64,000 nucleotides of DNA, from the NCBI RefSeq assembly GCF_024345975.1, contig NZ_JAGQCD010000004.1, forward strand, positions 62,001 through 126,000, in the 5' to 3' direction. The notes below the pieces were generated by a model, which worked only from the letters and a program-made list of their open reading frames with translations, did not search any database and was not told the DNA's origin. This document shows, one piece after another, positions 14,394-55,906 of this stretch; position 1 is the first letter of the stretch, and each line of letters begins with the position of its first letter. This stretch comes from Cyanobium sp. Cruz-8D1. GTDB lineage: Bacteria > Cyanobacteriota > Cyanobacteriia > PCC-6307 > Cyanobiaceae. The position numbers and the translations under genes are program-made.

Positions 14394-14513
14394 GGGGATT
14401 TGACAGTGTGTTCGGCGACCGTGTAGGAGGGTTCAAGGCCATTGGGCCTGGTCGAAACCCCTGCCGCAGAAAGTTTCTCTTTCAGGCGATGCCGAGGTGC
14501 CGACAGCAACGAT

Positions 14514-14585
<72 letters not shown>

Positions 14586-14693
14586 TGTCTTCATTCCTGT
14601 TTCTGCCCAGTACCGTCATCGCGACGGGGGCTGGTTGGCATCAAGACCGCTCGTCATACTGCTGGCTACGCAGCGCTTCAGGAGTACCTGCCC

Positions 14694-15466
14694 TTGCCCG
14701 AATCTCCTGCCGCAACCATGGCCGCAGAGAACTGGAGCGCACCGATCCCGCAACTCGTCCAGCTGGGCGAAACGCTCGGCAAGGCACGCCGCGACCAGAA
14801 CCTCAGCCTGGAGGAGCTGGCCAACAGACTGCGGCTGGGAACCGAGCAGCTGACGGCGCTCGAGGCGGGCGACCACGCACACCTGCCGGAAGCGGTGTTC
14901 GTGGTCGCCCAGGCCAAACGCGTCGCGGGCGCCCTTGGGATCGATGTCAGCCAGCAGATCAGCGATCTGCAGGGGAGCCGCTTGATGCGCGTCAAGCGGC
15001 GCCAGGTTCCCGTGACGCCGCTCCTGCGAGGGAGCGCCACCGCCCCCTCCAGCCAAGGCAGGCCCCTCGGCGGCCTAGGGGCGGCTCTGCTGCTGCTGGG
15101 GGCCGGCGCCGGCGCAGTGGCCGCCCTGCAGGAGAAGATCTTTCCCCCCAGGCGTCAAGGGCCCCATCAGCGGCCGCAGCCACCAACCAGAACACGACCC
15201 AGGGCCTGAGCACGTCTCCGAACCAGGCCCTGGTGCTGCAGAGCAATCAGCCCAGCTGGCTGAAGGTCCACAACGCCAACGGGGTCACCCTGTTCCGCGG
15301 CACCTTCACCGGCGAGAAGCGTTTCCCCTTGGGACAGGGCCTCAAGGTGCTGGCCGGCCGGCCGGACCTGGTGACCGCCACCGACGGCAGCGAGGGCCCC
15401 CGGTCCCTGGGGCGGATCGATCAGGTGGCGTGGCGCACGTTCACGGCGACACCTGCCGCACCGTGA
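14694..15466 (+). pseudogene. RodZ-like protein, split by a frameshift in a C6 run
   Basis: Membrane-anchored helix-turn-helix cell-shape protein of the RodZ type. The first frame (TTG 14694 with GGAG nine bases upstream, or ATG 14718) encodes a HTH_25-like domain (LGETLGKARRDQNLSLEELANRL) and a membrane helix (LGAALLLLGAGAGAVAAL). It then runs past the C run at 15144-15149 to a stop at 15207-15209. The C-terminal RodZ domain (SWLKVHNANGVTLFRGTFTGE) continues in the -1 frame to the stop at 15466. Adding one C to the run restores a single protein of about 257 residues. This may be a sequencing error, a real mutation or programmed slippage. The end overlaps convergent ppx. Confidence 0.75.
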
Positions 15467-17108
15467 GCCTCAGGCCCGTGGCTTCCAGCACCAGATCAGC
15501 GCAGGAGCGCAGGCTCCACTCCTCGAGGCCCAGATCCTGGGGGGGCTCACCGGGCTGTGGGGCGCTGGCCAGCAGGCTGATGGTGAAGCCACGGGACTGA
15601 GCGGTCCGCTCGGCGTCCGCAGAGACGCTGATCGCCTCGATTCCGGGGGCGGGCCTGCGGTCGAGGGCAGCCGCCAGCCGCAGCAGCAGCGCCATCGTGA
15701 ACACGCTGTGGCGGTGCTGCCCGGCCTCGATCAGCTGCCACGACTCGTGGCGCTTCTTGGGCAGGCTGCGTCGGTGGTAGCGGGCGATCGCCGCCACCAT
15801 CAGGTGCTCAGATTCGGAATAACCAAGCAGCTCCCCATGGCGGATCAGGTACCAGGTGTGCTTGTGGTAAGCGGCGATGTTCACATGCTTGCCGCAGGCG
15901 TGCAGCTGGGCCGCCGCCCACAGCAGGGCGCGGCCGTCGCCATCGTCATCGTGCAGCAGGCCCCGGGTCTGGTCGTAGAGGCTGAGGGCATGGCTGGCCA
16001 CCCGATCGGCCCGGACCGTGTCCACTCCGTAGGTGCGGGCCAGGTGCAGAACCGTGCGGCGGCGAATGGTGCTCTGGAAGCTGAAGCGATCGACGAGCAG
16101 GCCGTTGCGCAGCATCCAGTCGACGATCAGTCCCTCCCGCAGGGCCCGTTCACAGACCACCAGCTCCCTGACATGAAGGATCTCCATGGTGGTCTGGAGG
16201 ATCAGGGCGCCGGGGACGATGATCTCGGCCCGGCGTTCGTTGATCGCGGTGAGGGCGCGGCGCTGCTCCGGGGTCATCCCCACCAGCCGCTCGACAATCC
16301 CATCGAGACGGGCCCGGCCCAGGCGGTAGCCGTCGAGCTTCAGGGGCGGGTTGGGGTCCTGGGCGGAGGCCAGGGCCGCCATCGCCATGGCCGTACCGCT
16401 GGTGGCCACCAGCACCGGCTTCTCCCCCGGCCGCAGTTCCCGTTTCACCTCGGCGACGGCCGGATCCATCGCCCCCTGGATGTAGGCCTCGAGGAAACCG
16501 CGGCGGGCCGGCGTCAGGGGGTCCTCCCGGCAGAACTCCCGCTGCAGGCGCACCGCTCCGATGCGGGTGCTGGTGAGGGCGCGGGCATCGCGGCCATCGG
16601 CCAGCACCAGCTCTGTGGAGCCGCCGCCGATGTCGAGGATGAAGTAGGGCTGATCGCCGAAGGAGAGGCCCGAAAGCACCCCCAGGTAGATCAGTCGGGC
16701 CTCCTCCGGCCCGCTCACCAGATCCACCGCCAGTCCCAGCTGGTCCTGGAGCCCCTGCAGGAACGAGCGGCCGTTCGGCGCCTCCCGCACGGCGCTGGTG
16801 GCAGCGGTGACGATCTGCTCCACCCCATGGCTGGTGGCCAGGTCCCGGCAGTGGCGCAGGGTCAGGAAGGCGCGCTCGATCGCCTCAGGGGTGAGGTCGC
16901 CGGAATCGGGGTCCCTTTCCCCAAGGCGGGTGGTGGATTTTTCCGCCAGCACCACCGAGAAACTGCCCAGAACCGGATCGATCGCCGCGACCAGCAGATG
17001 GATGGAATTGGTGCCGATGTCGATGGCCGCCACTCGCCGTTCCGCGGTGCCGGACGTGGCGGGGACCGAAGCCAACGCGGCTGACGCCGGATCGGGGATC
17101 GGGGGCAT
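15441..17108 (-). CDS. ppx: Exopolyphosphatase, Ppx/GppA family
   Basis: Hydrolyses terminal phosphate from polyphosphate (or acts on pppGpp). The 555-residue product starts at ATG 17108; an in-frame ATG at 17220 would add a Pro-rich leader. The ASKHA ATPase core has VAAIDIGTNSIHLLV, the catalytic Glu region SAVREAPNG, FILDIGGGSTELVLADG and VATSGTAMAMAALA. A C-terminal HD-like helical domain carries LLWAAAQLHACGKHVN and SESEHLMVAAIARYH. The total length fits Ppx rather than the shorter forms. Confidence 0.92.
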   Translation of the reverse strand: MPPIPDPASAALASVPATSGTAERRVAAIDIGTNSIHLLVAAIDPVLGSFSVVLAEKSTTRLGERDPDSGDLTPEAIERAFLTLRHCRDLATSHGVEQIVTAATSAVREAPNGRSFLQGLQDQLGLAVDLVSGPEEARLIYLGVLSGLSFGDQPYFILDIGGGSTELVLADGRDARALTSTRIGAVRLQREFCREDPLTPARRGFLEAYIQGAMDPAVAEVKRELRPGEKPVLVATSGTAMAMAALASAQDPNPPLKLDGYRLGRARLDGIVERLVGMTPEQRRALTAINERRAEIIVPGALILQTTMEILHVRELVVCERALREGLIVDWMLRNGLLVDRFSFQSTIRRRTVLHLARTYGVDTVRADRVASHALSLYDQTRGLLHDDDGDGRALLWAAAQLHACGKHVNIAAYHKHTWYLIRHGELLGYSESEHLMVAAIARYHRRSLPKKRHESWQLIEAGQHRHSVFTMALLLRLAAALDRRPAPGIEAISVSADAERTAQSRGFTISLLASAPQPGEPPQDLGLEEWSLRSCADLVLEATGLRLTVRQVSP

Positions 17109-17238
17109 GGGAGTGGGCCCGGGCAGCGGCGGCGCCACTTTGCCACTGGGCGCCACTTCCCCACAGTGCACGGGAACGCCGCCATCAGGAGTTGGATAGG
17201 GTGCGGCCATACAACCGTTGCAAGCGGTGAACGTTCCG

Positions 17239-18132
17239 ATGGCCCCAGGCCGCGCCCAGGCCTGGCTGGAGCTGCTGCGCTGGCACAAGCCCAGCGGCAG
17301 GCTCATCCTTCTGATCCCCGCCGGCTGGGGCCTGTGGCTCGGTCCTGTCGTGCCGCCTCCGGCCCTGCTGGTGGGCTGGATCGTGCTGGGGGGCCTGGCG
17401 GTGAGCGGCGCCGGCTGCGTGGCCAACGACCTCTGGGACCGGCGCATCGATCCCCTGGTGGAGCGCACCCGCCACCGGCCCCTGGCCGATGGCCGCCTCG
17501 GGGTGGGCACCGCGGCGGTCCTGCTGCTGCTCTGCCTGGTGGTGGCCCTGGCGGCCTTGCTGGCCCTGCCCGCCGCCAACCGGGGGCTGTGCGTGGGCCT
17601 GGCCCTGGCGACGTTGCCCCTGGTGCTGCTCTACCCCTCCGCCAAGCGCTGGTTCGCCTATCCCCAGCTGGTGCTGGCCCTGTGCTGGGGCTTCGCCGTG
17701 CTGATTCCCTGGGCGGCCGCCCAGGGAGGCCTGCAGGGCTCCCTGGGCGGTTGGCCCCTGTTGCTCACCTGGCTGGCGGCGGTGAGCTGGACCTTCGGCT
17801 TCGACACCGTTTACGCCATGAGCGACCGGGACGACGATCGGCGCCTCGGGGTGCGCAGCAGTGCCCTGAGCCTGGGGGCCCAGGCCCCCGTGGCCGTAGC
17901 CCTCTGCTACGGGCTCACCTGTGCGGCCCTGGCCCTGGCGGTGCTGTTGCAGGGGCGGGCGGGTCTGCCGTTCTGGCTGCCCTGGACCGCCGCCGCCCTG
18001 GCCATGCAGCAGCAGGCGGCCCGGCTGCGTCGCCCCGATCTGCCCCGCAGCGCCTACGGCCGGCATTTCGCTGTCCAGGTGTGGCTCGGTGGTCTGCTGC
18101 TGCTGGCCGTGATCCTCTCCACCAGCGCCTGA
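17239..18132 (+). CDS. ubiA: UbiA-family prenyltransferase (4-hydroxybenzoate polyprenyltransferase-like)
   Basis: Integral membrane prenyltransferase; in cyanobacteria the family member of this type is assigned to plastoquinone synthesis. From ATG 17239 it is 297 residues with about eight hydrophobic segments. The two Asp-rich prenyl-diphosphate motifs are NDLWDRRID near residue 70 and DTVYAMSDRDDD near residue 195. The N-terminal LRWHKPSGRLILLIPAGWGLW is typical of the 4-hydroxybenzoate branch. A TTG at 17218 is an alternative start. It is divergent from ppx, and LD-carboxypeptidase follows after six bases. Confidence 0.9.
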   Translation: MAPGRAQAWLELLRWHKPSGRLILLIPAGWGLWLGPVVPPPALLVGWIVLGGLAVSGAGCVANDLWDRRIDPLVERTRHRPLADGRLGVGTAAVLLLLCLVVALAALLALPAANRGLCVGLALATLPLVLLYPSAKRWFAYPQLVLALCWGFAVLIPWAAAQGGLQGSLGGWPLLLTWLAAVSWTFGFDTVYAMSDRDDDRRLGVRSSALSLGAQAPVAVALCYGLTCAALALAVLLQGRAGLPFWLPWTAAALAMQQQAARLRRPDLPRSAYGRHFAVQVWLGGLLLLAVILSTSA

Positions 18133-55013: not shown

Positions 55014-55243
55014 CCCCGGCCGCTTGCAACGGTCCTGCCTGCTGACTCCGCGGTTGATCGTGATTCGGATTGATCACATTCCACACGACGGTTCCTGAAC
55101 ACGATGGCCGAAGGTGGATGTTTGCTTCGCTTTCGCCATTCGCTCATCCCCAGGGTTGCCTCCCCTCGATCTGGGCTTGTCCCCCTCCCATGCCCTTTCC
55201 CCATGGAACTGCCAGTGATTCGGCCTCCGGCCCCGGAGCGTCG

Positions 55244-55881
55244 ATGCCGCTCCGGGAGGAAGAGATCCTGACCTCGTGGGGCCTCAATGCCGCCGTCTGG
55301 ACCAAGGCCATCCTCAAAGCGATCAAGGAGTTGCCCCACGCACCCTGCTGGATCTGGGCTGCGGTGAAGGCTGGCTGGCCCACCATTGCGCCCGTCAGGG
55401 CATTGAGGTGCTCGGCATCGACGCCGTGAACGAGCTCACGGCTGTGTCCGCGGACAGCGCCCCGCCTGGTGCCCGCTTTCAGACGCTGACCTACCAGCAG
55501 GTCGCGACCGGCAGCCTGAAGGAGCGGTTTGATGTGGTGGCGGCCAACTTCTCCCTGTTGGGGAATCGCAGCGTCGACGAGCTGTTCCTGGCTCTGCCGA
55601 AGCTGCTTGTCCCCACTGGCTGCGTGCTTGTCCAGACCCTGCACCCCATGCTGATCTGCGCCGACCATCCCTACGAAGATGGGTGGCGGGAGAGCTCCTG
55701 GTCAGGCTTTTCCCCATCCTTCCGGACTCCGGCTCCCTGGTACTTCCGCACCATGGAATCCTGGAAGGGGCTCTTCCGCCGTCACAACCTCGAGGTCAGG
55801 GAGATGCGCGAACCCCTGGATCCCATCAGCGGCCAGCCCGCCTCGGTGATCTTTCGCGCCACCACCATGAACGCCGCCTGA
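55244..55881 (+). pseudogene. SAM-dependent methyltransferase, split by a frameshift in a C4 run
   Basis: Class I methyltransferase. The first frame from ATG 55244 encodes LREEEILTSWGLNAAVWTKAI, a typical pre-motif-I helix, and loses homology after the C run at 55334-55337. From there the -1 frame continues with PRTLLDLGCGEGWLAHHC (motif I), VLGIDAVNEL, FDVVAANFSLLG and the C-terminal GLFRRHNLEVREMREP to the stop at 55881. One extra C would restore about 212 residues. As with the rodZ-like gene, a homopolymer error or a genuine mutation is possible. The substrate is unknown. Confidence 0.72.
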
Positions 55882-55906
55882 GCCGCCTGAAGGCCCGGCC
55901 GCTGAC

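Follow-up and report, generated by a model that had tools for sequence, protein, structure and literature searches.

In Escherichia coli, binding of RodZ to MreB takes place in the cytoplasm. Cells of this species that produce RodZ1-142 or RodZ1-155, in which most of the periplasmic domain is gone, are rod-shaped according to the excerpted text of one report, which terms that domain largely dispensable (PMC6946637). Excerpts of another report assign the periplasmic domain of RodZ little role in the curvature preference of MreB, describe fewer MreB polymers when the domain is absent, and term it necessary for cell shape (PMC6052060). A literature search on RodZ with frameshift or truncation gave no broken rodZ among the matches listed, and no paper joining Cyanobium with RodZ was found.

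The window analyzed here is the whole stretch of 64,000 nucleotides at 62001-126000 of contig C43 of Cyanobium sp. Cruz-8D1 (genome G000), a draft assembly of 3.97 Mb in 108 contigs. We take the genus to be Cyanobium-like, with short, near-coccoid cells. The rodZ gene of the window is split between two reading frames, and the split is real in the assembly. We consider it probable that this is the ordinary rodZ of the genus, interrupted by the recent loss of one base immediately before a run of six Cs (C6), and that a truncated RodZ is most likely made. Assembly error is the main rival of this reading, and programmed slippage is unlikely.

Layout of the locus and position of the missing base

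The upstream neighbor of rodZ is a tRNA-Val (CAC) identified by ARAGORN at 14513..14586 (+ strand); tRNA-like read-through is also found upstream of the rodZ match in several relatives' loci. The 0-frame ORF (14718..15209, +) encodes 163 amino acids from an ATG at 14718 to a stop at 15207-15209. The mechanical ORF start is a TTG at 14694, and the ATG is more likely to be the start. This ORF contains, in order, the HTH, a juxtamembrane part, a hydrophobic stretch, and then 21 residues past 15143 that are outside the family frame. The HTH_25 domain (PF13413; 14775..14951, +) covers residues 28-86 of P0001 with an E value of 2.5e-15 and 56.4 bits against a cut-off of 24.6. By hydropathy, a single hydrophobic stretch follows the HTH, as expected of RodZ. 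This likely membrane-spanning stretch, GLGAALLLLGAGAGAVAAL (15072..15128, +), is the best 19-residue hydropathy window with a mean of 1.98, and the corresponding peak in L007, the rodZ locus of the sister genome G026, is 1.94. A Shine-Dalgarno-like AGGAG (15130..15134, +) lies 9 nt before the C run.

The linker and C-terminal domain are read in the -1 frame (15149..15466, +), and their stop codon at 15464-15466 is at the same position as in close relatives. RodZ_C (PF13464) is matched at E 0.01 or better in 27 of 28 intact relatives. In the window it is absent from the frame of HTH_25 and present in the -1 frame only, as a RodZ_C-like domain at 15233..15382 (+) scoring 20.6 bits (21.8 in a second search), below the cut-off of 23.9. 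A profile built from 28 intact orthologs matched frame 0 at model positions 2-185, running over two stops beyond the break, and frame -1 at model positions 154-274. Compared with G026, the linker has an in-frame shortfall of 39 bases (13 residues, by alignment with the length counted by eye) at 15222..15229 (+). A convergent ORF (15441..17579, -), presumably Ppx/GppA-like by its motif, overlaps the C-domain frame over the final 26 bases of the latter. An earlier note on this DNA had placed the HTH and membrane parts in one frame and the C-terminal RodZ domain in the -1 frame; its coordinates and frames are borne out by the domain search and the profile. It had also let the family-like sequence on both sides reach 15144-15149; such sequence was seen to extend to about 15143 before the break and to resume at 15149 after it. 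No ATG, GTG or TTG start was found in the -1 frame between 14801 and 15200, so a C-terminal piece that starts on its own near the break looks unlikely from the sequence.

When the DNA of the window was aligned with that of 14 relatives, 13 of them intact and one (L017, the locus of G023) split elsewhere, the break site TTT CCCCCC (15141..15149, +) was one base shorter than TTCT CCCCCC of the intact sister. The sister reads AAG ATC TTC TCC CCC CAG and the window reads AAG ATC TTT CCCCCC AG, thus the window is one base shorter between the AAG-ATC codons and the C6 run. Six Cs are common to the window, intact L007 and intact L012 (the locus of G025). The event is therefore not a shortened C run, and contraction of the C6 run as the cause is ruled out. 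The earlier note had placed the one-base difference inside this run and proposed to compare the number of Cs in relatives, with seven Cs on resequencing taken as the mark of a simple error. The base is missing immediately 5' of the run, and the seven-C test was mis-specified because the intact genes have six; the bases before the run, not the run itself, are informative. C6 is frequent in G000, with 400 overlapping occurrences on both strands of 301 kb at 68% GC.

Intact rodZ is the rule among relatives. The sister G026 shares about 94% DNA identity over 118 kb aligned from the contig and has rodZ in one frame, and the N-terminal part of its RodZ is 91% identical in protein sequence to that of the window. 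The surroundings of rodZ are collinear with both G026 and G004, as expected of an orthologous locus. When the 28-ortholog profile was run against 42 genomes of the genus, rodZ was in one frame in 33, split in two (G000 and G023) and without a clear ortholog in seven. In three of the one-frame genomes (G016, G017 and G020) there is one stop within the match, which is the natural end of the gene.

Probable recent deletion or possible assembly error

We favor a recent deletion because rodZ is in one frame in those 33 genomes, including the sister, because one change relative to the sister accounts for the break site, because frame breaks are few in the sampled G000 sequence, and because of the changes that have gathered in the C-domain region. 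The possible tolerance of rodZ loss in the genus, where seven genomes have no clear ortholog, and the presence of MreB and MreC in G000 also speak for this reading. A single base would have been lost recently just 5' of the C6 run in this one species. The product would be a truncated RodZ of about 163 residues with a cytoplasmic HTH part, a membrane anchor, a short foreign tail and no periplasmic domain. Such a protein is most likely made and may still work with MreB, and the C-terminal frame would now be silent.

A sequencing or assembly error, in which the rodZ of the cell is intact and a base was dropped in a draft genome of 108 contigs, is a possible explanation, to which we give the lesser weight. 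The site adjoins short T and C runs, and the C-domain frame is still open to the stop used by close relatives; the loss, however, did not shorten the C6 run. We screened conserved genes for frame breaks with two intact relatives as reference and judged candidates of G000 by eye. Among 108 conserved genes on C43, two interior breaks were judged real, those in rodZ and a methyltransferase gene, and none was judged real among 79 conserved genes on another G000 contig, C65. The rodZ break is thus the only single-base interior break judged real in the 108 + 79 genes, which argues against an error since the sampled draft looks clean. A generally noisy genome was rejected as an explanation on the same by-eye verdicts. 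The methyltransferase-like gene, at about 55200-55890 of the window, lacks 49 bases present in G026; its frame is broken by this deletion, whose junction is near 55310.

The raw candidates were more numerous than the breaks judged real. With G004 as the second reference, they numbered 5/108 and 0/79 in G000, 4/107 and 3/78 in G026, 7/128 in G023 and 3/114 in G008. With G026 as the second reference, they numbered 11/103 in G004 and 4/119 in G023, and with G008, 5/111 in G000 and 4/111 in G026. The other three candidates on C43 of G000 were a shadow-frame ORF, with the event just upstream of a gene that we presume to be petA by its motif, and two indels located ahead of likely starts. The five G000 candidates obtained with G008 were the methyltransferase, two from the first screen and two that were left unjudged; rodZ was absent from them. 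A stricter filter dropped both rodZ and the methyltransferase and retained two other G000 candidates among 95 genes. A G023 candidate in a GTPase gene, with an indel at codon 24, was ambiguous.

The C-domain region bears on both explanations. E202 is replaced by K in the window, where E is found in 23 of the 28 intact relatives and K in none, and R204, found in 27 of the 28, is replaced by H. These changes at two highly conserved residues, together with the 39-base linker loss, suggest decay and speak against an error. By parsimony, leaving out four unpolarized changes and one ambiguous change, the C-domain gained 7 nonsynonymous and 3 synonymous changes on the window branch vs. 1 and 6 on that of the sister (Fisher p 0.0498). 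Over the whole sequence past the break the counts were 9:3 vs. 2:6 (p 0.065), and before the break 7:5 vs. 6:6. On the window branch itself, the difference between the two sides of the break was not significant (p 0.67).

Maximum likelihood under a codon model did not back the parsimony contrast. With 14 taxa (L017 was left out as split, and L019, L020 and farther loci as distant), no relaxation of the C-domain was shown: omega was 0.235 on the window branch vs. 0.141 in the background (p 0.43), and omega 1 was rejected on the window branch (p 0.036). This constraint along the branch favors an error. Without the nine final codons, where the gene overlaps the convergent ORF, omega was 0.270 vs. 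0.104 (p 0.20) and omega 1 was not rejected (p 0.125). The sister branch was then unusual, with omega 0.002 (p 0.006), so the contrast of 7:3 vs. 1:6 owes something to a slow sister. The HTH part is constrained (omega 0.046, below 1 at p 0.001), and the N-terminal half of the window RodZ is under selection. On the C-domain, selection probably acted over most of the window branch, and decay of this domain may have begun. Mostly maintained constraint with possible early decay suits a recent break and is also compatible with an error. If constraint on the C-domain has lasted to the present, a very recent event or an assembly error agrees with the data no less than a loss long ago.

Possible loss of the domain in the genus and possible slippage at the C run

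It seems improbable to us that short, near-coccoid Cyanobium lineages are shedding the periplasmic domain of RodZ, adaptively or because its loss is tolerated, with the window as one instance; this reading overlaps with a recent deletion. In its favor, the seven genomes without a clear rodZ (G011, G015, G021, G022, G029, G033 and G035) gave weak HTH-side matches or none, and a search of all seven for RodZ_C at E 0.001 gave no match. Completeness is at least 90% in six of them, and another HTH_25 protein is retained in five. Because seven of the 42 genomes have neither a clear ortholog nor a RodZ_C match, the genus may tolerate loss of rodZ. The seven absences, however, may be one loss in one clade, and the weak matches of G021 and G022 over the HTH-to-membrane part (E 7e-4 and 3.2e-6, respectively) could be diverged rodZ copies.

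The independent break in G023, a single-contig genome, also favors shedding. Its rodZ, L017 (G023:C1:3154937-3155742), is split at a different place, where its C run has six bases vs. seven in L014 and L016, and its C-domain is otherwise well conserved. This break precedes the hydrophobic stretch and removes the membrane part as well, so the products of the two split genes differ. Moreover, at about 0.6% broken genes per genome, an estimate from candidates judged by eye where raw candidates are more numerous, roughly 0.2 other rodZ breaks are expected among the 34 other orthologs. The second split is thus unsurprising and is not strong evidence for a trend.

We also looked in G000 for a second full RodZ and found none: a protein on C15 is RodZ_C-like and has no HTH_25, and a protein on C30 has HTH_25 and no RodZ_C. 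The C15 protein (L149:3340-4299) resembles one in G025 (L150:3189-4070, on G025:C37). Both have a start that is coiled-coil-like by eye, a hydrophobic stretch, a RodZ_C-like end and no HTH, and their neighbors are similar. In some relatives a multi-copy RodZ_C-like protein occurs (G019:C1:12289-13338, G064:C63:622-1653, G061:C323:81-971 and G005:C23:17549-18313), in whose ORFs of 387-590 amino acids the C-terminal part of the RodZ profile is matched two or three times in succession.

The earlier note had named a recent break, an assembly error and slippage as possible causes. The first two stand; the third is not supported. Slippage, translational or transcriptional, at TTT CCC CCC that yields full-length RodZ besides the short form is very unlikely. 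On the C6 run one-base slips are possible, a shift of -1 after CCC CCC would lead into Q-A-S as in close relatives, and the C-domain is not free of constraint. Bacterial -1 frameshifting sites follow the slippery heptamer rule X XXY YYZ, with a stimulatory structure a few nucleotides downstream and a Shine-Dalgarno-like element upstream, and the AGGAG is placed 9 nt upstream as at sites such as dnaX. However, T CCC CCC mismatches the heptamer, and the P-site tRNA would have to re-pair on UCC. The TTT-CCC-CCC-A sequence, which had been proposed as a run for slipping back, is a poor -1 site by these rules.

Nor was a stable structure found close downstream of the run, where the 60-nt fold was no better than shuffles (z +0.91). 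A strong GC-rich hairpin lies farther into the linker at 15199-15233 (80-nt fold, z -2.40). It begins 49 nt past the run, and a 150-nt fold of the intact sister, which needs no slip, predicts a comparable hairpin; the sister 80-nt fold (z +0.51) ends before the 3' arm of the hairpin. AGGAG precedes the run in none of the 14 aligned relatives (AGGGG in 8), and chance alone predicts about two AGGAG-C6 pairs in 301 kb of G000, where one was seen. No other genome of the genus searched is split at the window's break site, and the 33 genomes with rodZ in one frame indicate that slippage is not an ancestral trait. We therefore regard programmed slippage as unsupported. A newly arisen recoding site, aided by the AGGAG and giving short and long RodZ forms prior to decay or fixation, is the least credible of the readings.

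Cell shape and comparison with known systems

G000 encodes MreB (C23:61858-62835) and MreC (C23:61082-61513). The earlier note had suggested that loss of the C-terminal domain could matter for a coccoid cell. This suggestion is weakened by the rod shape of RodZ1-142 and RodZ1-155 cells in the excerpts of PMC6946637. Because the excerpts of PMC6052060 term the domain necessary for shape and describe fewer MreB polymers without it, an effect of the window truncation may still occur. We expect that a truncated window RodZ would have a mild effect on shape or none.

If the deletion is real, the window offers, in a near-coccoid cyanobacterium that retains MreB and MreC, a natural parallel to the RodZ truncations made in E. 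coli. If that is true, the genus, which includes members without a clear RodZ, could serve as a comparison set for the role of the periplasmic domain. A single broken rodZ is by itself an ordinary outcome and not a special coding trick. The locus resembles programmed -1 frameshifting of the dnaX type in its upstream Shine-Dalgarno-like AGGAG and a run that permits a one-base slip, but differs in having no perfect heptamer, no close stimulatory hairpin and no conservation in relatives. With the intact RodZ of G026, G004, G025 (Cyanobium sp. Cruz CV13-4-11) and G018 (Aphanothece cf. minutissima CCALA 015) it shares HTH_25, the hydrophobic stretch, the linker and RodZ_C. In these relatives all are read in one frame, whereas in the window the frame is lost directly behind the hydrophobic stretch and the linker is shorter. 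Like RodZ1-142 and RodZ1-155 of E. coli, as described in the excerpted report, the predicted window protein retains the HTH and membrane part and mostly lacks the periplasmic domain; those truncations were engineered and gave rod-shaped cells, whereas the one in the window would be natural and is predicted from the sequence (PMC6946637).
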